A stretch of DNA of 64,000 bases from Heterotrichella gracilis (lineage: Eukaryota > Sar > Xanthophyceae > Tribonematales > Xanthonemataceae): NCBI GenBank assembly GCA_032358255.1, contig JAULBX010029931.1, positions 62,001 through 126,000 on the forward strand, read 5' to 3'. The notes under the pieces were generated by a model, which searched no databases, was not told where the DNA came from, and saw only the letters and a program-made list of their open reading frames with translations. Below, piece by piece: positions 1,273 through 44,766 of the stretch. Position 1 is the stretch's first letter. Every line of letters starts with the position of its first letter. The translations under genes were made by a program, and so were the position numbers.

Positions 1273-4200
1273 TCATGCCCATGCCAGCACCACTAGGCCA
1301 AACACAAGGGCAGCGGTGGCCAGGCAGCCAGCCAGCACCCAAGCAAATGCCTGCGCAGCGATGCAACATGCGGGTATTCAAATTACACAAAAGATTGTGC
1401 TCCCAAGGGCGTCGCGCTAAACACATGTGTTTTTCCTACATTCAGCAACATTCAGCAGCAAGAATGGTCAAAACACAGAACAAGGAAATCTCTTGGGTTG
1501 GGTTTGGTACAAAGATCTTGCATGAAGCGCAGTGTCACACTGAATCACCAGCTGCTTGGTCCGCAAGCCGCATGTGCGCTGGATGGTGTTCAGCCCCTTG
1601 TCCACAAAAGGAGCCAAAACCACTGCGCCACCTGCTCGCGCCACCTGGCAAAAATCAGGCATGCAATCAGCACCACTGAAAGCTGACTATGGTGACAATT
1701 GAAATTCGATGGATGAAGGATGCAAGCCATGCAAACATGTTTCTGGCAGAGTGGCCCAGCACCACACAAGGATGTACGAACCTTTTCTACCAGTATGGCA
1801 TACCCAACAGTCACAGCGGAATAGCCACCCTCAAACAGCAAACACGCAAACAACACCCTCTCCAGCAGCACGCCAGCCCTCCCTTCCCCTCCCCTTTATG
1901 ACCTCAACCACGTAACATCACCCCGTATCACCACTCCGCTTCTACACGCCCACCACTCCAGCGCTTACCTTTGTCACCTGGCTGCCGGCCCATGTGAGCG
2001 CAAACACCTCCACAAAGCGGCGCATGGCACCCGCCACACCAAGCCCTGTGGGGACAAGGGGGGGGAAGCTGTGGGAGGCGGTGCAGGCGGGCGGGGCCAG
2101 CGGGGGGTTGTATGGAGTGAATTGTTTGTTGCAGACGCCAATTTGAGCAGTGTATGGACATCGGAGCATACATGTGCTGCATGTAACATCTGCCAGTGGA
2201 GAACACGTGTGCATGCATGTAACATCTGAACAATGGAATACACAAGTGCATGCAGTTGTGAATACGACCATCCAGGGGCTGGACAGCTGTGTGCAGCGGG
2301 TACATTGCATGTGCAAACCTGCCATCCCCGTCCAATTCCACTATTTGTAACGCTCGCGGCAAGCATGTCGGTCCTACGACTTAAACCATTCTGTGCAAAA
2401 ACTCATGCTTTCGGTCCTTCCTAACCCCTATGCCCTGCACTATGGCTCAAGGGCATGCATCCTGGCAAGGTCAAATGTGTTCTATCATGTGCACCCCTGC
2501 CTACACCCCACCTGTCGGCACCTTGATGCCATGATGGTGTACCCTCGCTATGTCAAATCTGCGCAATGATGTGCACCCCCTGCCTTGGCCCCCACCTGTC
2601 GGCACCTTCATGCCGTGATGGCGCACCCTCGTTAGGTCACATGCACCATCACTAGGTCAATTGCACCCCATCATGTGCACCCCCTGCCTATCCCCACCTG
2701 CCGGCACCTTGATGCCATGATGGTGCACCCTTGCTAGGTCACATGCAACCGACCATGTCCACCCCTGCCTAGCACCCACCTGTCGGCACTTTGATGCTGT
2801 GATGGTGCACCCTCGCTAGGTCACATGCACCCTCACCAGGTCACATGCACCCGGTCATGTGCACCCGCTGCCTGCCTCCCACCTATGGGCACCTTAATGA
2901 CATGGTGGTGCACCCTCGCTAGGTCAATTCCGCGCGATCATGTGCACCCCCTGCCTGGCCCTTACCTGTCGGCACCTTGATGCCAAGATGGTGCACCTTC
3001 GCAACGTCACATGCACCCAGTCATGTGCACCCCCTGCCTGCCTCCCACCTATGAGTGACCCCAATGGCAGTCTAATGACCAGCACTGGCTGTGAAATAAC
3101 TAGTGCCATTGAACTGGATGAAAAACATTGACAGTCACTACTACGCCGGTCAAATGCACCCGATCATGTGCACCCCCTGCCTGCCCCCCCACCTGTAGGC
3201 ACCTTGATGACGTACACCCATATGAACAGAAAGGCAGCCGTGTAGTACAGGGTGTTGAGCAGGCCATAGGCAACCACGCCTGCAAGGCCGAGCTCCCGTA
3301 GCTGGCTCCGAAAGCTGCATGAGCACAGGTGGGTTGTCAGGAATCGCAGGCGATGGCGCAAGTGGCAGGGGGTGGAGGTGGAGGTGGAGGTGGGTGATCG
3401 AATGTGCAGGCATTGGTGGGTGATGGAGGGGATGGCGGGCTTTTGCAGTGCATTTGCTCGTTGACATTTCCCGACTGCGTAGATTGCACACTACATGCAT
3501 GCCCGCCTCACGGCTCGTCTGGGAATAATACCGTATAATACACAGGACATGCAAGCAGTGCGCACTGAGGGGTGGACAAATGGCTTGATGTAGGGTATGC
3601 CATATCTGTATGCGCGTATGGCACACTGCAAGCGTGCTCACCTCCCCTTCCATTACGACCAAGCACAGGGTGTGATGCAACCAGAGCGCAACATCTTTAT
3701 TCATGCTCTACACTCAAAACCTTTCCCAGTGCATTTAATACAAGTTTGCACAAAAATATCCAAATGCTGTGTAATAACCGGCCTCCCCCATCCCACTTGT
3801 CCTCCCCGTGTGTCTCACTTTCTGCCAGCTCCCTGGGGTGGGTAGGTGCCATTGCTAGGGCCAGTAGTCACCCCTACCGCCACTGCCGGGCTAGTGCTAC
3901 TGCTGGTGCTGGTTTCCATGTTCAGTGCGGCCTCATCCACACCTGGAGCTGGCACAGGGGCACTGCTGCCGTTGCCACTACCACTAGTGCTGCGCATCAC
4001 CTGTGCAACGTGGGGCAGGCGGTCAGTGGCATAGTGCGAGGCTGTAGTGTGCAATATTCCGCTGTGTCTATGCGCAAAGCCTCCGTTTTAGTGATAGTGC
4101 TGTGGGTTGAGATTGGTCGCATTGAGGTACCCTAGACCCTAGACCCTAAACCCGCTGCTATATGCATGCATATGCAATAGATAAACTGCACGACGCAAGC

Positions 4201-15720: not shown

Positions 15721-18700
15721 ATGACGGTAGTAGTAGAGTCATCTGCCACCAACCAGGCGCCACCTCAAGCTATGCCTGCAGCTGCCAACGGCATACATGG
15801 TGAGCAACCCACGAGCAACCTTGACACCGAGGAACAACCAGACAGCAACCACAAGGAACCTCCACTAGAACCTCCACTTGACAGCAATCACGTCAATGCA
15901 GCAGCCAGTTCGCCTGCTGCCTGTGGTGCTCCCGACAGCAGCGAAACCCTCCACTTTGACGAGATCCTAGAGGGTTTGGCAGGCGCGGTTGAGCAGGAGG
16001 CAGCACTGGAATGGCTCAGCACTGCAGAGGCCATGCAGCTTCCAGAGATACCCGAGGGGTATGTCACAGTCGATGACCAAGGGTACGACATGCGGGTGGG
16101 CGTCCAGCCCAAGCGGCCGGCGAAGGTGGAATCGGACAGCGAGGATGCAGGGGAGGAACACCATGCACCGCGCAAAAGCAGCAGCTCAGGCAAAACTGAT
16201 GAGGCGAGTGAGGGCTCAAGTGGCGATGACAGCGATGATGATCAGGGGGAGGACAATGGTCGGGTGCAGCGCAGCACAGCCTCCTCCCAAGATCAGGACA
16301 CTGGTAGGTGCAACCCGAGGACTGCCTGTCTGATATGGGATTGTATGCCGCATCACAGCATGATGGGGTTTCAGCATTGCTCAAGCATTTGAACCCTCTA
16401 TTGGCGGTTGATGGTGTGGTGCCAATAGTTGCTGAATCATGTAGCCTTTCGTTGCAGGGGGGGGGGATGATAAGGATGCAGGTGAAACACCCAGAGTCAG
16501 GAAGACAATCAAGAAAAAGGGTCCAAGGGAGGTTGACTACTATGGAATGGATCCTGGATTGTTTCAGGTAATGGGGCGTAGTGAGCAACGCCATTTGGCA
16601 CATGCCGCATGAGCAGAACCACCATGCAATATGCTAATTATTTGGCTTTGTCCCACGCTTTGCATGAGCACATGAGGATACAGAATACAATTTAGAAAAT
16701 CTCCAAAAATATGTTCTGGTGTTTGTTCATGCACTTTAATGCGTATGCACCAGATGCAATTGACTAACATGCCCCATCCGCAGGAGGGCGAAGTTCCAGG
16801 AAGGCCCAAACAAGCCCTCCCGCCTGGCTGGAAATGCATTCGGAGGTCGATTGTCGAAGGTAGGATACACAGGGACTACAAGCTCTACTACAGCCCCAGC
16901 GGCCGGCGGTTTCAAACATTCGCTACAGCGGCAAAGGCTTTCGACAGTGACTTGCCCTCTAAGAAGCAGAAGAAGGGTATGTTGGGCACGCTGGGGAGAT
17001 GCTGCGTGCATGTGCCGTGGTGCACACTGTGTGTCCTTTTATCTGCTGCAGAATGTGGTGCAGTTTCTGGTTCAATAAATGATTCAATTTGGATATATTA
17101 TTGACTGCCCATTTCAGTACAAGTGCCTGTGCAAAATTATGCGAGGTATCTGCTTCTTATAGGGGAGGGTTGTGCATATGATGAATCATAGGCCGTGATT
17201 GATTTGATCAATGGTTACCGATTATCTGTGTTACCTGTACAACCATGCGCAGGTACGGCAACCATCAATGCGCCGATCAATGCGCCCAGCAATGCCCCCA
17301 GCAATGCGCCCAGCAATGCGCCCATCAACACGCCCAGCAAGGAGTCTGCCAAGGAGCACAGCAAGGAGCCCATCAGTGCACCTGCTGCTATTCCAGACAA
17401 CGCTGCAGACGGAGACGAAAGAGCGCCTGCTGAGAGAGCGCCTGCTGAGAGAGCGCCTGCTGAGAGAGCGCCTGCCAACAGAGCGCCTGCCGACAGAGCG
17501 CCTGCCCACAAAGCGCCTGCTCCTGCATCTGTGCCTTTCTCTGCAGACCAGCTGCCGCGCGGTTGGCACATGGAGGCAGTCCGGAGGGTGAAAGGGATCA
17601 AAAGCGCTGTTGACAAGTAAGCGTTGTTCAACTTGGCAAGTAACAATGTGTTCTGCATCTGCAAAATCCAAATGATGCACTGTAAGGGTAAAGTTTTTGA
17701 GACAGTGCTTCATCATTGGAATGGAATATCTCCACGGCAGCTGTTGGCCTGAGGAGATGCAACGCCACAGGGTAAATGCCATGCCTTCGTGCGTTTACCT
17801 TCGAATGACGGGACACATTTCTAATGTGCTGCATGGAGCATGTCACCCTCCAATTTTGTGCAAGGGGTTCATAACAACTTCAATTGTTTGTGCTAAAGGT
17901 GCAACTGTGCCTTTTCACAAATATCGTGATTGCGGTGCAGGTACTATATTTCACCTTCCGGCGAGAAATTCACCTCCTTGAGAAAAGCCCAGCAGCGCTG
18001 GGCAGGAGAGCCAAATTTCGCCCTCCTACACGAGGTTCTCCTGTCCATTGCCGCACACCCCTTGGCACCAGTGAGTGCTGGGCAGGAGCTGGCGCTGCAG
18101 CGGGCGCGGCACGTGCTGTGGGTGGAGGAGGCGATGCATGCGGGCAAGGGGGAGTGTGCCGTGTGCATCGAGATGGATGCTGGAGTGGGAGGCAAGTGGA
18201 GGGGGAGGGCCAGGGGTTAGATTGCTTGCATGGTGCAAGCAAGTTAAGTTACAGGAAAATTAGTTATACCCTGCACCCAGCCAATCTGACGTCAGTGCTA
18301 AGGATATCTGTATACCTGTGATATCTATCTTTCTCTTTGCGCCATGGCTTTTGGTGCAAAGAACCACTCTTGTTTTCCGCCCACTATTTGACCCCGTGAC
18401 AACTTGTGTTTTTGCAACGTATTGATGTCTCGTCCTTTATTGTGTGCAATGTTTTCCACTTTTGGTGTGGAATTTAGCCATCGTTTAATCTTTCGTTGGA
18501 CCAAAAGTGCAGCACACTGTAAGTAGTCATAGACCGGCCGTTTTAGTACAAATTTATGCAAGGCATCTGCTTTTTCTACGGCAGGGTTATGCGCAACTAA
18601 CTAATGAATCATAGGCCGATCGTTGCTTTGATTAATGATTATGGATTATCTGTGACAGGTGTGCAACCATGCGCAGGTACAGCGCCCATCCATGCGCCCA

Positions 18701-21160
18701 TCAACAAGCCAAGCAGTGCAGCTGCTGTCGTTCCAGACAATGCTGCAGATGGAGACGAGAGAGTGCCTGCTGACAGAGCGCCTGCTGACAGAGGGCCTGC
18801 TAAGAAAGCGCCAGCTGACATGGCGCCTGCTGACATGGCGCCTGCTGACATGGCGCCTGCTGACATGGCGCCTGCTAAGAGAGCGCCTGCTAAGAGAGCA
18901 CCTGCTGAGAGAGCGCCTGCTAAGAGAGCGCCTGCTGAAACAGTGCCTGCCGAGAGCGCGCCTACTGACAGCCCGCCTGCTGACAGTGCCCCTGCCGAGA
19001 GCGTGCCTGCCGACAGCGCGCGTGCTGACAGAGCCCCTGCTCCTGTATGTGCACCTTTCTCTGCAGACCAGCTGCCGCCTGGTTGGCACATGGAGGCAAT
19101 CCGAAGGGTGGGAGGGACCAAACGCGCTGTTGACAAGTAAGCGCTGTTGACAACAATGTGTTCTGCGTCTGCAGATAAAAACCAATGTACTGCAATGGTA
19201 AAACTCTTTAGACAGTCTTCATCACTGGAATGGAGTGTCTCCATGGCTGCTGTTGGTCTGAGGAGATGCAGCGACATAGGGCTATGCCATGCCTGGGTGT
19301 GGGGGTTTCGCTTAGCGGGACGGGACGCATTTCTGATGTGCTACATGGACCGTTTCACCCTCCAATTTGTGCAGAGAGGATGCAAAAACCATCAATAATC
19401 TTGTGCTATAGCGCAGCTTTGCCTTTTTACACATATTACGTTTGCGGTGCAGGTACTATATTTCACCTTCTGGTGTGAGATTCAGGTCCCTGAAGCAAGC
19501 ATGGCAGCACATATCAGCTCAGGGTGCCATGCCCTCCCCGCAGCCATTGTCAGGCCTCGCCCTCCTACACGAGGTTCTCCTGTCCATTGCCGCACACCCC
19601 TTGGCACCGGTGAGTGCTGGGCAGGAGCTGGCGCTGCAGCGGGCGCGGCACGTGCTTTGGGTGGAGGAGGCGATGCATGGGGACCAGGGGGAGTGTGCCG
19701 TGTGCATCGAGATGGATGCTGGAGTGGCAGGCAAGTGGAGGGGGAGGGCCAGGGGTTAGATTGCTTGCATGGTGCACGCAATCATTACAAGAAATTTAGG
19801 GTTTAGGGTTTAGGGGGACATCCTAAACCCTAAACCCTAAACCCTAAACCCTAAACAGAAATTTAGATGTACCCTGCACCCAGCACCCAGCCAATCTGAC
19901 GTCAGTGCTAAGGATATCTGTATACCTGGGAAACCTATCTTTCTCTTTGCGCCATGGCTTTTGGTGCAAAGAACCACTCTTGTTTTCCGCCCACTATTTG
20001 ACCCCGTGACAATGTGTGTTTTTGCAACGTATTGATGTCTCGTCCTTTATTGTGTGCGATGTTTTTCACTTTTGGTGTGGAATTTAGCCATCATTTAATC
20101 TTTCGTTGGACAAAAAGTGCAGCACACTGTCAGTAGTCATAGACCGGCCATTTTAGTACAAATATATGCAAGGCATCTGCGTTTTCTACGGTAGGGTTGT
20201 GCGCAACTAACTAACGAATCATAGGCCGGTCGTTGCTTTGATAAATGATTATGGATTAGCTGTGACAGGTGTGCAACCATGCGCAGGTACAGCACCCACC
20301 CATGCGCCCATCAAGGAGCCCAGCAGTGCATCTGCTGCCGTTTCAAACAGCACTGCAGATGGAGACGAAAGAGCGCCTGCTAAGAGAGCGCCTGCTGACA
20401 GCGCGCCTGCGGATAGCGCGCCTGCTGACAGCGCGCCTGCTGAAACAGCGCCTGCCGAGAGAGCGCCTCCTGACAGAGCACCTGCTGAGAGTGCGCCTGC
20501 TGAGAGAGTGCCAGCTCCTGTATCTGTGCCTTTCTCTGCAGACCAGCTGCCGCCTGGTTGGCGCATGGAGGCAATCCGAAGGGTGGGAGGGTCCAAACGC
20601 GCTGTTGACAAGTAAGCGCTGTTGACAACAATGTATTCTGCGTCTGCAGATAGAAAACCAATGTACTGCAATGGTAAAACTGTGTAGACATGCCATGCCA
20701 TGCCTGGGTGTGGGTGTTTTGCTCACCTGACGGGACGCATTTCTGATGTGCTACATGGAGCATTTCACCCGCCAGTTTGTGCAGAGAGGATGCAAAAATC
20801 ATCAATCATCTTGTGCTGCGGCGCAGCTTTGCCATTTTACACATAATGTGTTTGCGGTGCAGGTACTATATTTCACCTTCTGGTGTGAGATTCAGGTCCC
20901 TGAAGCAAACATGGCAGCACATTACAGCTCAGGGTGCCATGCCCTCCCCGCAGCCATTGTCAGGCCTTGCCCTCCTCCATGAGGTTCTCCTGTCCATTGC
21001 CGCACACCCCTTGGCACCGGTGAGTGCTGGGCAGGAGCTGGCGCTGCAGCGGGCGCGGCACGTGCTTTGGGTGGAGGAGGCAATGCATGCGGGCAAGGGG
21101 GAGTGTGCCGTGTGCATCGAGAGGGATGCTAGGGTGGGAGGCAAGAAGAGGCGGAGGTAG
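15721..21160 (+). CDS. Multi-MBD (methyl-CpG-binding-like) protein, 9 exons
   Basis: Exons: 15721-16303, 16458-16567, 16784-16976, 17253-17616, 17941-18191, 18677-19136, 19453-19730, 20287-20611, 20863-21160. They total 2862 nt (953 aa) and every phase fits. The N-terminus is acidic and Ser-rich (nuclear type). Four MBD-like domains lie near residues 243-285, 395-440, 632-675 and 833-878. Each has LPxGW, a basic strand and YYxSPSGxxF, for example VDKYYISPSGVRFRS, which is the core of plant and animal MBDs. MBDs 2-4 are on duplicated exon pairs. The first exon of each pair has Ala/Pro 5-residue repeats (xRAPA) and the MBD first half. The second has the other half plus a ~60-residue module (ALLHEVLLSIAAHPLAP ... 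ECAVCIEMD) that I do not recognise. The introns after 18191 and 19730 start with GC. Role inferred: reading DNA methylation or bridging chromatin. Confidence 0.85.
17105..18240 (+). repeat. MBD exon-pair unit 1 (oldest, most diverged)
   Basis: It contains the upstream intron end (matching ...ATGCGCAG before each unit), exon 17253-17616 and exon 17941-18191. Its linker repeats differ from units 2 and 3: four-residue NAPS/NAPI repeats precede the RAPAE repeats. Its second exon is shorter (251 nt) because it lacks a stretch present in the other units (HISAQGAMPSPQPLSG). Confidence 0.8.
18241..19800 (+). repeat. MBD exon-pair unit 2
   Basis: Nearly identical to unit 3 over exons and introns. The block from TACCCTGCACCCAGCC (18269) to ATGCGCAG (18676) recurs at 19870-20286 with few changes. 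The linker has roughly two dozen 15-base repeats encoding x-x-A-P-A. Confidence 0.85.
19797..19856. repeat. Head-to-head telomeric repeat between MBD units 2 and 3
   Basis: Three TTTAGGG units (19797-19817) are followed by a 6-base spacer and five CCTAAAC-type units (about 19822-19856), giving an inverted repeat able to form a long hairpin. It sits in the GC-AG intron that separates the duplicated exon pairs. Flanking copies of AGAAATTTAG on both sides (19790 and 19857) suggest it was inserted into the site, possibly during break repair. Confidence 0.85.
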
Positions 21161-21300
21161 ATTCTTATATCTGTGGCAATTGCCTTTCATCCTTGCACCC
21201 ATGGCTGTTGGGGCAAAGAACGACCCTTGCTCCTACCCACTACCTGACCCGTGACAGTTTCTGTTTTGCATTTGCTTGAACATATTGATGTATGATACTC
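19857..21300 (+). repeat. MBD exon-pair unit 3 (terminal)
   Basis: The last copy of the duplicated exon pair. Its linker has about a dozen x-x-A-P-A repeats. At the position where units 1 and 2 have the GC donor (G/GCAAGTGG) this copy reads GGCAAGAAGAGGCGGAGG and runs to TAG at 21158, so it ends in a basic tail (KKRRR). Confidence 0.8.
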
Positions 21301-36116: not shown

Positions 36117-38172
36117 TTACAGCACTGCCAACACTGCGTCCAAGCTGGACTTGGTGGACTCCAGGGCCTTGAGGGCGGAGGACTCGTTCTTGCTGCGCAG
36201 GGCGAAGTCAAGGGCCTCAACCTGCACAAGGGGTAGACAACATTTGTCAGCCACCCTAAAACCAAACAGCCGGAACTAGAAGAAAGCCTTCTAGCATAGC
36301 ACCGGGTTTTGCCACTCGATGGTATCAATGTGGTGGAGTAGCAGTACCAACAATAACCCACCCGCCCAGTCATCAGCATGTAAGTAGCAGGCCACCAAGT
36401 CACGCATCACAGAGCACCGATATGATACTGCACAGGACAGTTGTGGGCAAGTAGTGCACAGTGTGCGTACCTGGGACAGGAACTCCTTCTTCAGGGCCAG
36501 GGCGGCCTTCTTCTCTGCCTTGGGCTTGGCATCAGCAAAGGCGTTGATGTCAAAGCGCAGGGTGCCCACCTGGCGGCGCAGCTGCTCGCGGGCCTCAGTC
36601 CTACAGGCAAAGCAACAGGCAGGTCAGCCATTTGGCACGTCAAGGTGACCAACAATAGAGGAACCCCTTTTCTGGGCTTGGTGCTAACAGCACCACTTCA
36701 GTGGCGCAGCCTAGTGTATGTTGCCAAGTGCACTGTCCGGTATCATGTCTTGGTCCATACCAATAGTTTGTATGGGTACATGCTAGGGCTTGGGTCCTCA
36801 CCAGTAGTTCTTCTTGATGAAGGCCTCCAGGTCGCTGTCGATGCGCTTCTCAGACTCAGTCAGGCGGGCCTTGGTCTCAGCCAGGGCTTCGCGGGCCTGT
36901 GTGAAGCCCTCACGCTGGTTCTGGGTCAGGTCAAGGTCGCGGGCCTCGTAGATGATGTCGAAGCCGGTGGCCAGTGCTTTCCTGTCATCGATAAGGTCCA
37001 GGGCCTTGGCGCCGCTGGCAGAGATGGACAGGGCAGCCACACCAGCGAGCATGCCAGTGAGGACCTGCGGGTGGGTGGAGCTTGTGAAGGGAGGTGTAAT
37101 GGGTGTGGGGGTGTATCGCTGGCGGAAGTGGGTGGTGGGCAGGTGGAGGGTGGGTGCACAGAGGGGCACCTGGTGAGACTTCTTGTACACAGGCATGTGC
37201 CAAGGCTGCTGAAGGTGCCAGAGGCTACTGGAAGCTTTAGCTACTTGTTGCAATGACATACAGACAGGGGAGGAGGGGGGGAAGGGTGGCACTTACTGCG
37301 CGGCGGGCCACCTCTGGCTCGGTGGAGGCACGGCACACCAACGCCCTGCAGCAAGGTATGTCTCAGTTACAGCTGGGAGTCATATTCCTGTGACATGCAG
37401 CCACTCTTGATGCACAACCTGCTATTGGGTTGCCTTAGGATGGATACCCAGGTCCAGCCAGGTTTCAGGGTGCAATACCCAAAATCCTGGTTGTGCAACA
37501 GCATGACGTGCAGCCCTGTTCATACGAATCGAGGCTAGTGCACGAGGTCGACAAGACCCCCAACCAAGCCGCAAACAGGATCCCTCGATTCGCTACAGAT
37601 TGGCCTTATCCAAACAGCCGGTCGCCTGAGTTGGCAACTAAATTCAGCTTTCTTGGGCCAACTACTGCAAAACGTGTACGAATTGCGCTCTGAAAGCTCT
37701 CGTGACAACTGCGCAAGCCAAAAACCCTAGCACAGTCGCCAGCACCGATGCCGCGATATAAAGGTCCATGTGGGCAAACCAACCTTGCGCGCCCTGCATG
37801 GAGGCACAGTCGACGTCAGGCACGGATTCAATTGGGTAATGGCAGGCCAAAGCAGGGGAAAACGGCAAAGCAACTCACCAGCTGAGCGAGTGGCCTTGGT
37901 GGCGACCGCGGCCCTGCGACATGACAAACGGAAAGGGTGAGAAGGCTGCTGCACGGGCGCCCAATTGAGTTGCCATGCAAGAAAGTTCTTTTACAAAGTA
38001 GTGGGTTGTCCAGGTCGTGGAGGGATTCGATAACCCATTAGTGAGACTATTAATGGGCAACTAGAGGGCTGTCGAGCAAGGTGACTAGTGCGCTGTTCAC
38101 GGACGTGGCATTAGGCTGATCAACACCGACTGACCTCTGGGCGAAGGACGTCTGCTGCACGACGGCGTTCAT
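36117..38172 (-). CDS. psbQ: Photosystem II oxygen-evolving enhancer protein 3 (PsbQ), 7 exons
   Basis: Exons: 38135-38172, 37879-37913, 37784-37793, 37297-37345, 36802-37064, 36471-36600, 36117-36221. They total 630 nt (209 aa). The 10-nt exon 3 (GGCGCGCAAG) is needed to restore the frame, and with it every phase fits. A stroma-targeting part ([13 protein letters not shown]...) is followed by a lumen signal with twin arginine ([20 protein letters not shown]) and an AKA-type cleavage site. The mature domain opens [20 protein letters not shown] and continues [16 protein letters not shown], the four-helix PsbQ fold. It binds the lumenal side of photosystem II and stabilises the Mn4CaO5 cluster at low Ca2+/Cl-. 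The first three exons match those of the neighbouring rpl4 gene in length, phase and sequence. Confidence 0.93.
37784..37793 (-). other. psbQ: 10-nt microexon of psbQ
   Basis: GGCGCGCAAG lies between an acceptor (TCCATGCAG) and a donor (GTTGGT). Without it, exon 2 (phase 1) cannot join exon 4, which needs two preceding codon bases. With it the leader reads ...[13 protein letters not shown]. Confidence 0.75.
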
Positions 38173-39031
38173 CTTGCTGGTTGTTGCTGCGATCCCGGGA
38201 TGGGTGGGAGGAAGGGAGTTGGGGGAATGAGCAAACCTGGAAGATGCGCTGCAAGACAGCTAGCACTGGAGTCGTACAAGTAGAGTTGCAAACTTCTTGG
38301 AGCAGACCAGCAGCCCACTTCGTGTGGAGATAATCTTCTTGATTGGCTCCCCCGGTCCTTTTCAGATCTGCTCCGGTTGGACCGGAAATCGCATCGGTCC
38401 AGCTCAGCAATCCGAGCAATGAGCTGAAATTCCAGCCCAAACCCTATATGTACCCTATTAGGGTAATGAAACCACCACATTTTAAGAAACCCTTGCCTGG
38501 CTTGGCCATTGCTGAGCTGTTTTTGCTCCAGAGAGACAGCAGAATCTCTTCCTTATGCCTGTTTTGCAGTCGCCCCCCATGCACATGCAAGCAACCTCAA
38601 ATGCCTCTCAACAGTGTACCCGATAGATGGAGTGCCCACCTTTCAACCCAGCCAATTTGCGCAGCATTCAACCTTTCATGGCGGTGTACCACTTAGGTCA
38701 GATGTGACTGTCATACATTACAGAAGGAGGGGTTGCATAACTCAGTGTGATGCGTGTATCCCAGGGTAACATCTCACCTACTGACTATCACAAAATCCCA
38801 TACTGTAAGACCTGTTGGTACCGTGCGCACTGCCACAGGGCGTGCAGTCCTGCAGGCAACGTCGCACACTCCACAGAAACCGTAGCAATGCTTCACAGGT
38901 GATGCATGAACATATGCACCGTCAAAACTCCGCTATACAGGCTGTCCTTCCGCATGGCCCGACTGCTGTTCAATGCCCCTCACGCCATGCCACCTCCACT
39001 GCCATTAGCTGCCGCTGTTCAGCATCACAGC
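38173..39031. other. psbQ promoter side and 3' end of rpl4
   Basis: No exon was found. Telo-box-like AAACCCTA and a CCCTATTAGGG palindrome occur at 38441-38464, about 280 bases upstream of the psbQ ATG, in the likely promoter. Confidence 0.45.
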
Positions 39032-40889
39032 TCATGCTGTCTGGGGGCCGTAGAACTCCTGGATGAACGCCAGGGCCTCCTTCTCAATCACGATCTTGTC
39101 CGCGCGCAGCACGTCGTACACCCTGATGGCATTTGCGGTGTTCAGCTTGAGCTTCTCCACGTTGCGCGCCGACAGCGTCAAGTTGGCGTCAACCTCGGCG
39201 GTGATGACCAGCGCGTACTCCTCCGGGGACACACCCAGGCCCTCAAGGGTTTGCACCAGCACCTTGGTCTTGGGCTCGCTCAACTTGCCCTGCGCGCAGC
39301 CATGGCACCGTCAGGCTTGGATGTAAGTGGCCAGTCCAGCAACACACTCTCTTGGCCTTGCAGCTGCTTAGCTACTTAGTTACCGGTTGTACATGCATTC
39401 CAGCAATACAGCAACCATACCAGTCAGTCTTGCACATGCGGCGCCAGGCAGCTCTTTCCTGGCACTGTTTGAACCACCCGTTGATTCCACGCAACCTGGG
39501 TCGCGCTGGAGAATGTCTTGCAGTGCAGTTGTTGTGAAAACCCTACAAACCCTAGCGGTTAAGCAGAGCCTCTGCCCCATGCAAACCTTTGAAGCTGTGT
39601 GAATGAGCATTTCGTACCTTCAGCCCCTCCACCACAATGGTGTCTGCTGATGCGCTCTGCAGGGCTGTGGCCAGAGCCAAGCGCCTCTCCTTCTTGTTCA
39701 TCTTGATGCTCCAGTCCTTGGTCTGCACGCACATACAAGCAAGGACTGTTCACCAACCCAGTGCACGCAGTGTCTGGGCACCCTTCAACACATGTGCAAG
39801 GTAGCATACACTGCATTGGTTTCCTGAGGCATGCAACTGCACCAGTGCAAGCTTGCAGCACTTCTCTCACCTTGGGCCCAAACACCACACCACCACCGGG
39901 GAAGAGCGGCGACGTCGTGGACCCCACCCGGGCGTTACCGGTTCCCTTCTGGGAGTATGGCTTCCTGCCACCACCCCGTACTTCTGCCCTCGTCAGGGTG
40001 TTTGCGTTACCCTGCAACAACCAGCCAGAAGGTTGGCACCCGCAGTACTGGATCCACACATGGCCAAGCGTGAGAGACGGGAGAGGGAGGCATACCGAGC
40101 GGGCGTTTTGCCGGACATGGACCAGGTATCTGTGCACCAGCCCCTTTGCTGTGTCGGTTGCAACCTTGAGGGTAAGGTCAGTTCCGCCCTGGGAGGTTCC
40201 GTCAGCGGACTTGACGGGCAGGGTGGTAGTTGCCACTGATGACATGGCCACTGTCAACTGCTTCCTTGGGACAGCCACCCGTGCGCGTGATTGGCTGCAA
40301 GATGCAGGTAACCCATTCAGGATTGAAGCAGCATTTGTGGGCTCCTTCCCACATTGTGCGATGTGTGCAAATGCATTAGCTAGTGCATCACCAGGTGGAT
40401 GCATGCAGTTCCTATCACATCCGCGCGTGGAAGCGCCAGGAGGAGCAATGCACTGCATGCAAGTGCACGCTTGGCTTGCTGTTAACAGAGTATCGCGAGC
40501 CCGGGAGTTCAGCTGGTGGGTCACAGTACTAACCTTGAGCATCCTGCAAAACACCACACACAATAGGTCAAGTAGGGTCCAATTGAACCGAGACTAAGCG
40601 AACAAACTTCAGCAAACCATGACAAGCCCAACCCACCTGAGGAATGGCTGGTCCTGGAAGAGAACGCCCCCCTGCAAGGAACAGTAACAGTGGCGTTTAG
40701 GGGAGAGAATCCAAGTCAGGTACTGTGAACAATGCAACCCAATGGACGAGTGGTCTGTGGCGTGAGACCCCACGCTGTGTCTCTACTAGCCACCTATGCT
40801 ATGCAGCGGTCATATGCAACCCATACACGGCCAGGTGCAAGGCTGTGGACTGACCTCTGGAGGAACGAGGTCTGCAACAGAGCACTCAT
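39032..40889 (-). CDS. rpl4: Chloroplast ribosomal protein uL4c (L4), 7 exons
   Basis: Exons: 40855-40889, 40637-40671, 40534-40543, 40096-40294, 39871-40011, 39618-39722, 39032-39289. They total 783 nt (260 aa), phases consistent, with a 10-nt exon 3 (GATGCTCAAG). A transit peptide ([18 protein letters not shown]...) precedes the mature protein. The uL4 signature is complete: [14 protein letters not shown], then [20 protein letters not shown] and [20 protein letters not shown], the extended loop that lines the ribosome exit tunnel. The C-terminal fold follows, with [20 protein letters not shown] and [19 protein letters not shown]. It is a core component of the plastid 50S subunit, binding 23S rRNA. 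The gene is nuclear, as is usual for L4 in green algae. Confidence 0.93.
40534..40543 (-). other. rpl4: 10-nt microexon of rpl4
   Basis: GATGCTCAAG lies between TTTTGCAG and GTTAGT. It carries the frame from phase 1 to phase 2 exactly as the psbQ microexon does. Its internal ATG is not the start; the ATG at 40889 is. Confidence 0.78.
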
Positions 40890-41781: not shown

Positions 41782-44766
41782 TCAACTCTCCCCCTTGCTG
41801 CTCTGACTTTGCGAGTCCTTGAGCTGTTGCCCCTTGACCACGGTGATCGGCCCCCGTCGGTCCGCCACCACCGCCACGTCAGCAATGTCCAGCATGAGCC
41901 CATGTGTCACCACGCCAGGCACCTGCTCCATCTCGGCTGCCAGCTCAGCATAGGGCACTTCCTGGCCGTACAGCACAAGGGGGCCATCTGCAGGGGAGGG
42001 CAGAGGGGACAGGTTGGCAATGATGTAGCGTTGCTGTGTGGTGACTTGGCGGAGGTGATTCTATAATGAAAAAGACATGCTGGGTGCTGGATAAGCAGAA
42101 AAGAGAGTAACGCAACAGGACGGCCATGAGCACGAGTCATGCCCACGAAAGGTGCATCACACTGAAGTGCACATGCACGACACGCGAACATGCATCTGAG
42201 CTGTGTAAGGTAGACAGCATGGCCTGTGCGACATCCATGCAGCCCACAGTGTTGCTGCAAATACCCAGTTAATGTATGAGCACCCAGGCCTATGCACCCA
42301 GGCAGTGTACGCCATGCACCCCTGAGGGCAGGCACCTGCGAACCACACAGCAAAAGGAGGAAACCACTCACAGAACTTGACATCCAGGATGTTGTGGCCG
42401 TCCGAGCTGACGTAGGGGTTGTCGCCCCCCCTGGGTCCCGCGGTGCCCTCCGCAGATCGCCGCCTGCACAGCAAGCAACAGCAGGCACGTGAGGGGCCAC
42501 CCATGATCAGGCAGGTAGGGTAATTGATAGGGTTTTTGGAGGTTGCACACAGACGTGGGGTTTTCGCGCTGCCCATAGCGCTTTTGGCTTGGAGTACAGA
42601 ATGATACACCACCCAGATGGCCTTGAGCTGTCAAAAAGTAATGTCCCCTGCCAACACCAACTCACTGCTGCCTATTGTTCGGCCAGTGACGCTCATGCAC
42701 GGCAGAGCAATGCACAGCTAGGCACACCAGGAACCAAGCGACCAGGCAAAATATATGCTTTGCCTTTATTCACTGATAGTGCAACATGCGCATCTCGACG
42801 CATCGTCAAAGGTGTTGACAGCATGCTGCATGCTGGTGCACGGCATGCTGGCTGTGTCCCCCAAATCCCCACCATATTTCTGCATCCCCCAAAAAGATGT
42901 CGTCCAGCTCCTCTGCAGGCCCCTCCCAGTCCTGTGCCTGGATGACCACCGGCAGGGTGCCCTTCAGGCGGGGGACAACCTGTGCAGGGGAAGGGCGCAG
43001 CGTTGGGTAAGCAGCGGGGATGATTAATAAAATTCCTGCCCTTGCTGTCTCATGCAAAGCAGAAGCATGGGGTTGAGCAATCCAGTAGGAGTTGCAGCAC
43101 CAAACTCGGGGAGGATTAATGGACACGCCTGCTGCAAGCACTTTGCAAGGACCTCAGTACCTCCACTCCACGAGGGAAAACCCTGCCGGAGTGTGCGCCA
43201 TAGCACCAAGTAACAGGTCACTTAAAATCATACCCACATGATCTTGCTCCTCTCAGGCTCCCACTAACTTGCACCTCCGCCACCTCCACCCACATGGCAC
43301 CCTCAACCCATCCCACCCACCCTTGACTGCCCATCCACCAGCGCCACAAAGGTGGTGGCCGCCTGGGCCACCCTGCGCAGGCGGGGCAGCTGCGGCTGGG
43401 CGGGCTCGCTCACCCTCCCCGTCACAAAAGCCAGCCCCCCTTGGGGACTGCCATCCAGCTCGTCCACCTCGCTGAACATCACATCCACCTGGCACCAGGG
43501 GGAAATGGGGGGTGAGGACAAGGGGAGGGGTTGATGCGATGATGGATGGGGGGATTCATGCAGAGGGCAAGGCGCGTCAAGTGTTGCACAAGGTTGAAGG
43601 AAAGTGCACATGCCCGTCAGGGTTGTCCCTCGAACCCCTGTCAATTTACTTGCCCCGCCTCCAACCTGCAACTCCCCTGCCGTGCATTCTTGCCCACCAA
43701 CACCTCTGCATAGGGTCTCACCTGCCGCGTGGCTTCTAGTGTGGTCTGCGGCAGGCCGTGGAAGGCGGCCTCCCCAGCAGCAGTGTCTGACGCAGGTATG
43801 CACAGGATGTCCTTCAGCTTGTGTTCATGGATCTGCTCTGATAGGTACTCTATGGCTAGGTTGGCCTGGGTAGGTAGGGTAATGGTTAGGGTGAGGCACT
43901 GCTCAGTGTGGGTTTTTTAAATGACAGGAGGTTTGGCCTGTGGCGCCTATGGCGTGCCCTGGAGTGGGAAGTTAAGATGTGGCAATTGAAATGGAGGAAA
44001 CTAAATGCACAGCACTTGGCATTCAGACGTGCGTGCCAGATAAGAGAGGTGTACGTGGGGCAGATAAGTGAGCAACCATTCCGCGGGACAGTGTGCGCAC
44101 CAGGAGTCCAGTCCCCAGCCCCACCACGTCCCCGCTCTTCACGTAGCTGTCAACAGCCAGGGCTGCTGCTGCCCTGCACGTGTCACGGATTTTTTTCAAT
44201 TCAAGAGTGTAGTGCACTTCTGTGCGGGGGGTTGGACAAGCGCACCACTTGCTGCACCACATGTATGCATGTGGCAGTGAAGATCAAACGCCAACCTTCT
44301 CTTGCACACCAATTGACACCGCAGAGGCTCAAGTTACTACAAATGTAAGTGGTACACGCGGCATATTCGGCGCCTACAAAACTAAACCCACCTGCGATGG
44401 TCGCTGCTGACTTGCTGCGCAGAGCATTGTGGGACACGTTTGCTGCGGCTTACGCCCACCGACCGCCTGTGAATGGATGCAAAGCCGTTATTATTACTTT
44501 TACTAGTGAGCACAGGCGTTGTCGATATATTGTCCCGCGTTGACAAACCGCAAGGTTTTGACCACAATGCATGCATATGCGGGCCTAGGCACACCAGGGC
44601 CACGACGCCAGCCGCATTGTTACAGACAGTGGGCTGGAATGCACACAAGGTTTGTTGCGATACGTGTTGAAGAAGCGATGTGCGCTCCGACAACAGCTCC
44701 CCACCTGGTTTGCACTCGCCCAATGCAGGGCACCCTGCCACTGCTACTCAGTACCCTGGCATCCAT
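41782..44766 (-). CDS. Ribose-5-phosphate isomerase-like protein (RPI4-type), plastid, 7-9 exons
   Basis: Well-supported exons: 44392-44442, 44101-44219, 43722-43865, 43321-43488, 42873-42979, 42372-42463, 41782-41987. Tentative 5' exons 44705-44766 and 44593-44633 give a Ser/Arg-rich leader (MDARVLSSSGRVPCIGRV) and keep the frame (990 nt, 329 aa), but the donor at 44592 is weak. The fold is RpiA: ELKKIRDTCRAAAALAVDSY, VKSGDVVGLGTG, ANLAIEYLSEQIHEHKLKD, ILCIPASDTAAGEAAF, FVALVDGQS and PGVVTHGLMLD. The sugar-phosphate loop and catalytic site differ from true RpiA: GTGST is GTGLL, DGADE is SEVDE, and the KGGGGA motif is PQGGLAF. This resembles the plant plastid 'probable ribose-5-phosphate isomerase 4' group. 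Activity is doubtful. Confidence 0.75.

Follow-up and report, generated by a model that had tools for sequence, protein, structure and literature searches.

Two neighbouring nuclear genes for plastid proteins, psbQ and rpl4, begin with matching three-exon leaders of probable common origin in Heterotrichella gracilis

Why should two adjacent genes for functionally unrelated plastid proteins begin in the same way? The question is raised by a 64,000-nucleotide (nt) stretch of the Heterotrichella gracilis genome (assembly GCA_032358255.1, contig JAULBX010029931.1, positions 62,001 to 126,000; here the window), in which psbQ and plastid rpl4 are neighbours on the minus strand. We rebuilt both gene models from the window sequence. 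Each has seven exons and a complete, stop-free frame (Table 1), and the products are a 209-amino acid (aa) PsbQ (Pfam PF05757, 128 bits) and a 260-aa uL4c (Pfam PF00573, 193 bits). An initial annotation of this DNA had proposed that the two genes open with the same leader module, and the features that it described are present to the base: under the predicted splicing, the first three exons measure 38/35, 35/35 and 10/10 nt (psbQ/rpl4) and end in phases 2, 1 and 2 in both genes, exon 1 closes with CCAGAG/GTCAGTC in both, and the 10-nt microexons with their donors read GGCGCGCAAG/GTTGGT in psbQ and GATGCTCAAG/GTTAGT in rpl4. The cassette codes for approximately residues 1–27 of PsbQ and 1–26 of uL4c, and a junction intron, whose position and phase are common to both genes, separates leader from body. 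We conclude that the two leader cassettes probably share descent, whichever way the copy was made.

The leader exons are alike as nucleotide sequence. When joined, those of psbQ and rpl4 align with a score of 23, compared with 8.5 ± 1.7 after first-order Markov resampling, and none of 2000 randomisations scored as high; taken singly, exons 1, 2 and 3 were equalled in 1, 16 and 17 of 300 randomisations, respectively. The best of six blastn matches between the two neighbourhoods spans 28 nt across the end of exon 1, with 21 nt on the exon side and 7 nt within intron 1 (86%, E 6e-4).

The placement of the introns points the same way. In a simulation with uniform placement and no splice-site preference, three random introns per leader agreed this well (exons 2 and 3 equal, exon 1 equal or 3 nt off) with a probability of 5.7e-5. 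For a view of other leaders in the genome, we tried 19 loci: 14 light-harvesting complex (LHC) genes, four PsbP-like genes (of nine matches) and one PsbO. The LHC loci came from 30 fetched of 43 matches, using those that match from profile positions 1–12. Five loci (L030, L037, L085, L086 and L087) were left out with unreadable leaders, so that 14 leaders remain. For L014 and L084 the models come from visual inspection of the sequence. The first exon of four loci varied with the settings; we took it as 39 nt for L016, 78 nt for L022 and 77 nt for L095, and placed no leader intron in L033. In these chosen models nine of the 14 leaders have one intron within their first 85 nt and none has two, so three leader introns in psbQ and in rpl4 are unusual. 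The LHC leaders L015, L019 and L021 have one intron position in common, at K/G, which indicates that leader intron positions in this genome can record descent.

Because transit peptides resemble each other anyway, the peptide null was built from PsbQ and Rpl4 N-termini: 86 and 85 sequences, respectively, from 240 listed database proteins, each starting with M and at least 195 aa (PsbQ) or 238 aa (Rpl4) long. The two leader peptides of the window (29 aa) score 52, which was reached by 7 of 7310 unrelated pairs; over 46 residues the score is 59, reached by 0.08% of unrelated pairs. Among the 14 other leaders of the genome the best match scores 36 to psbQ and 32 to rpl4, and only four of the 91 pairs that these leaders form score 52 or more, all of them LHC against LHC. 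By peptide and nucleotide scores alike, the psbQ and rpl4 leaders are thus similar beyond ordinary transit-peptide resemblance. The motif RARVAVPR at the head of rpl4 exon 4 is most like the PsbQ leaders of Myrmecia and P0087, which rank first and second of 86. It could suggest a longer homology, but over 46 residues other Rpl4 leaders equal that of the window, so the motif is no more than a lead.

Table 1 Exons of the psbQ and rpl4 models in the window (predicted splicing).
Feature	Coordinates	Strand	Length (nt)	Remarks
psbQ exon 1	38135..38172	-	38	ends in phase 2; codes for 12 residues and a split Arg
psbQ exon 2	37879..37913	-	35	ends in phase 1; in the top independently trained model
psbQ microexon GGCGCGCAAG	37784..37793	-	10	ends in phase 2; in the top independently trained model
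psbQ exon 4	37297..37345	-	49	ALVCRAS region, presumed stromal processing site, absent from rpl4
psbQ exon 5	36802..37064	-	263	PF05757 protein
psbQ exon 6	36471..36600	-	130	PF05757 protein
psbQ exon 7	36117..36221	-	105	carries the stop
rpl4 exon 1	40855..40889	-	35	ends in phase 2; codes for 11 residues and a split Arg
rpl4 exon 2	40637..40671	-	35	ends in phase 1; in the top models trained on psbQ alone and on the first scoring set
rpl4 microexon GATGCTCAAG	40534..40543	-	10	ends in phase 2
rpl4 exon 4	40096..40294	-	199	remaining transit peptide and start of mature uL4c (presumed border)
rpl4 exon 5	39871..40011	-	141	PF00573 protein
rpl4 exon 6	39618..39722	-	105	PF00573 protein
rpl4 exon 7	39032..39289	-	258	carries the stop

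Several observations count against a copied cassette. Introns 1–3 of the two genes are alike no more than chance would make them (284, 44 and 280 of 300 randomisations as high), and the nearest 200 and 60 upstream bases are without similarity (170 and 515 of 1000 as high); the 850/900 bases upstream of the two genes score 22, against 16.7 ± 2.7 for randomised sequence (15/300 as high). Given this lack of similarity, intron copying is attested by positions and phases only, and either the copy must date from long ago or the two genes never had their noncoding parts in common. P0123, the Rpl4 of another alga, is closer to the window PsbQ than the window Rpl4 is (67 vs 59 over 46 residues), in a match that runs through ALVCRAS, common to both; against a set of the window PsbQ, P0002 (the PsbQ of Myrmecia bisecta) and P0087 it scores 51.7, compared with 49.0 for the window Rpl4. 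When P0002 and P0087 alone form the set, two of the 85 other Rpl4 leaders equal or exceed that of the window (46.5 and 44; window 44). Protein comparison on its own therefore does not show that the Rpl4 leader descends from PsbQ. The LHC leader L034 starts MAALTQSTFL and is intron-free, an instance of leaders sharing motifs regardless, and rival models of L022 (39 + 35 or 21 + 35 nt) and L095 (27 + 20 nt) would place two introns within 85 nt. Of the proposal that a leader module had been duplicated, introns included, the common origin of the leaders and of their intron positions is well supported, whereas the intron sequences are unlike each other and the supposed spread of the module is unsupported.

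That spread, to further genes for plastid proteins, was not borne out by pattern searches of the genome for the exon 1 junction and the microexon, in which no further leader of this kind was detected among the sites inspected. The exact junction occurs four times in the 68.5-Mb genome, in psbQ, in rpl4 and at two sites that, judged by eye, have no such leader. With up to three mismatches, the exon 1 core matches these two genes at zero mismatches and seven other sites at three (L007–L010 read in context, L011–L013 from the matched letters alone), compared with eight matches of a reversed-pattern control. Ten sites genome-wide match M(N/S/T/I)A...AGAG/GT, and from their matched letters the eight outside psbQ and rpl4 have no such leader. 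The microexon pattern gave 95 matches, only psbQ and rpl4 at zero mismatches, and none of the 28 other loci inspected (of 93 other matches) has a similar leader; the reversed control gave 19, an unfair comparison because the forward pattern includes splice signals. Three loci, L066, L082 and L083, could hold a 35-nt second exon and were rejected, as their peptides bear no resemblance. A third copy of the three-exon leader was thus not found by pattern, and all 14 other readable leaders differ. A copy as diverged in its exon 1 core as the psbQ/rpl4 pair should have been detectable; more diverged copies may escape.

Searches with the Rpl4 leader alone, with PsbQ against the genome contigs and with Rpl4 against viral contigs gave nothing. 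At high identity the genome holds one locus for PsbQ and one for plastid Rpl4. The other L4 matches are one of 66% over 35 core residues on contig C717, possibly mitochondrial, and one of 35% on contig C222, and a PsbQ-like stretch (30%) lies on contig C123. Contig C222, on which the L4-like match is uninterrupted, also has several FKBP-domain open frames of 190–355 aa and could be a bacterial contaminant.

If the cassettes are homologous, which gene gave the leader? We lean towards psbQ as the donor. Its leader matches those of other PsbQ proteins (Myrmecia bisecta 64, P0033 58, P0087 57), and the best score of the Rpl4 leader against 85 other Rpl4 proteins is 32. Within the same shared ancestry, a transfer from rpl4 to psbQ, or a derivation of both leaders from a third gene since lost or diverged, is an unlikely alternative that nevertheless has to be taken seriously. 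Rpl4 leaders change fast, with a median score of 18–22 at 60–70% identity of the mature proteins, and no longer reveal their own history, so that a low match does not prove a foreign origin or settle the direction; nor is direction given by two copies alone. Against a transfer from rpl4, the likeness of the PsbQ leader to other algal PsbQ leaders means that such a copy would need to be older than the divergence from Myrmecia, and in the present gene order it would take two steps, a duplication and a deletion, rather than one. A third donor is disfavoured by the pattern searches, which detected no third copy.

With psbQ as the donor, one ancestral cassette comprising the first three exons and three intron positions would have been copied once and locally. 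If a tandem duplication began in a 5′ intron of an rpl4 lying upstream and ended in intron 3 of psbQ, this single event would have joined the psbQ start and leader to a second rpl4 body, with the order and orientation observed. The result would be a chimeric rpl4 upstream of psbQ on the same strand, the first rpl4 copy being lost afterwards. Because a single tandem duplication would explain the geometry, we counted it towards psbQ as the donor. A genome search for a remnant of an older plastid rpl4 found none, which speaks against this route. We propose only tentatively that the neighbour's start, leader introns and microexon were captured in one tandem duplication and displaced the leader that rpl4, already established in the nucleus, had before. 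Elsewhere, the identifiers of a PsbQ (P0015, scaffold17.g481) and an Rpl4 (P0162, scaffold17.g466) from one source hint at linkage of the two genes, if they belong to one species.

The argument also depends on the exon models, and that of rpl4 is less well supported than that of psbQ. A first scoring set consisted of psbQ, rpl4 and LHC exons; for independent scoring, splice and codon scores were trained on other genes only (a set that includes the rival models of L022 and L095, themselves doubtful) and run at three intron penalties. Under independent training, the 38-35-10 structure of psbQ is the best model at all three penalties. The first set returned psbQ as drawn and rpl4 as 6-17-35-10. 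When trained on psbQ only, the best rpl4 model contains exons of 35 and 10 nt, preceded by 17 nt that end in TSFLQR and by spurious upstream exons, and is tied with one that shortens exon 2; conversely, the best psbQ models after training on rpl4 only hold the 35- and 10-nt exons, again with spurious upstream exons. For psbQ, the PsbQ of Myrmecia bisecta, MNAVAMQTVSTQR-AAVVGKSVRPAA, likewise backs the join between exons 1 and 2, and the QR that ends psbQ exon 1 of the window recurs in P0002 and P0087.

Could the rpl4 leader use other exons, with the 10-nt microexon not spliced in? We regard this as improbable, but the points in its favour are real. Under independent training and the mildest penalty, the top-scoring rpl4 structure omits the microexon (13.0 vs 12.5 with it), and at both harsher penalties none of the top three models has it. 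Exon 1 never came out of an automatic run at its full 35 nt: independent training dropped it, and the other trainings reduced it to its last 17 nt. The nearest database Rpl4 (P0121, 87%) begins downstream of the leader, and a direct join of rpl4 exon 1 to exon 4 would stay in frame. On the other side stand the psbQ-trained model with its TSFLQR end, the consistent first rank of the psbQ structure and the quality of the splice sites: by independent scoring, all leader splice sites of both genes, including the six of introns 1–3 of rpl4, are in the top 4% of GT/AG sites of the window, the exception being the psbQ microexon donor, in the top 14% of GT sites. Acceptor/donor pairs 10 nt apart and at least as strong as the weaker site number two on both strands of the window, and these are the two microexons. 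Twelve other spacings (4–16 nt) hold 0–3 such pairs each, 11 in all, which tempers this count: with about one pair per spacing expected in 128 kb of strand, the microexons are unusual by place, not by number. If exons 1, 2 and 4 are taken as given, the frame of both genes needs an extra 1 mod 3 nt, and a 10-nt exon gives that. From sequence, then, a 10-nt coding microexon is predicted in both genes, with better support in psbQ than in rpl4.

Two further features of the leader exons can be recorded. Exons 2 and 3 (37784–37913 in psbQ, 40534–40671 in rpl4) amount to 45 nt between phase-2 introns in each gene, so that a transcript lacking both would stay in frame and encode a transit peptide 15 residues shorter. 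Predicted RNA folding of the stretch from exon 2 to the microexon is unremarkable (z 1.19 and 0.99).

The least probable account is convergence, in which green-algal leaders favour QTSF-type starts, introns favour AG/G and the three-exon match is a coincidence: it can point to L034, to QTS or QSSF motifs in other algal PsbQ and Rpl4 leaders, to the few unrelated PsbQ × Rpl4 pairs that score as high at either length and to the need to weigh the odds against all gene pairs that a reader could notice, but it has to accommodate three intron positions that would agree at random at about 6e-5, the absence of a second intron within 85 nt in all 14 chosen models and a joined-exon match that no randomisation equalled.

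That leaders of this kind serve plastid import is established. The cassette would initiate plastid entry of PsbQ and uL4c. From the gene models, the remainder of the transit peptide, including the part with the processing site, appears to come from the gene-specific exon 4, which would give the cleavage site. In structures of the chloroplast ribosome protein uL4c, the chains align from residue 51 (6eri), 52 (5h1s) and 36 (28jw) of the window protein, which fits a uL4c leader of roughly 35–50 residues.

Upstream of rpl4 on the same strand (window 41785–44300, minus strand) lies what we take to be a ribose-5-phosphate isomerase-like gene. No convincing leader or 5′ end could be modelled for it, and CCAGAG/GTCAGTC was not found there within two mismatches. 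Elsewhere in the window, three head-to-tail units of ~1.4–1.6 kb at 17199–21191, parts of them up to 97% alike, each contain a 15-bp minisatellite (AGAGCGCCTGCTGAC or close) in ~7 to 19 copies, and look like a locally expanding gene or repeat. Positions 2457–3052 hold an array of an ~83-bp unit, also read as period 186.

Leader transfer between genes is a known process, and psbQ/rpl4 would be a local case of it. One precedent joins rpl32 to a superoxide dismutase (SOD) leader, for which Ueda 2007 is said to be the original report. According to the passages available from the papers cited here, in Populus and other Malpighiales the nuclear rpl32 gene obtained its transit peptide from the gene for a chloroplast Cu-Zn SOD by exon shuffling (PMC8018952). 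As proposed here for rpl4, the gene for a plastid ribosomal protein took its transit peptide from an unrelated nuclear gene whose product is likewise a plastid protein; there, however, the plastid genome had only recently lost the gene body, and a duplicated SOD gene was the source of the leader (PMC8018952), whereas psbQ and rpl4 are both nuclear and adjacent, and their cassette has three introns and a 10-nt exon. The leader exon of PETF in Thalassiosira oceanica possibly came from LI818 (PMC3022921). This too is a leader exon proposed as a module taken from a photosynthesis gene (PMC3022921), but in a diatom, with one exon and a tentative donor, compared with three exons of matching phases here. 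For chl-fus (cEF-G), in a paper on neighbouring genes, a transit peptide was recruited via a phase-1 intron (PMC4522979). The recruitment was likewise intron-mediated, with a junction in phase 1 and a donor that those passages do not name (PMC4522979), where the psbQ/rpl4 junction is in phase 2. In plants, microexons of 1–15 nt keep their size and phase across clusters of similar genes (PMC8831610); the predicted 10-nt coding exon falls in this size range, but the same microexon stands here in two unrelated genes. No report of the psbQ–rpl4 leader appeared among the titles and abstract openings searched, a body of literature that mostly lies outside subscription journals.

The origins of transit peptides are argued from a few traceable cases. 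At this locus the presumed donor lies next to the presumed recipient, both genes are nuclear, and three introns and a 10-nt exon form a fingerprint of the copied unit. If related algae carry the cassette on psbQ and not on rpl4, it would become possible to date the event and map its breakpoints. Annotation often overlooks small microexons (PMC8831610), so further cases may be hidden. Should the capture proposed here be correct, leader capture between adjacent genes would be a general route for exchanging plastid address labels, and such exchange would occur long after the transfer of plastid genes.

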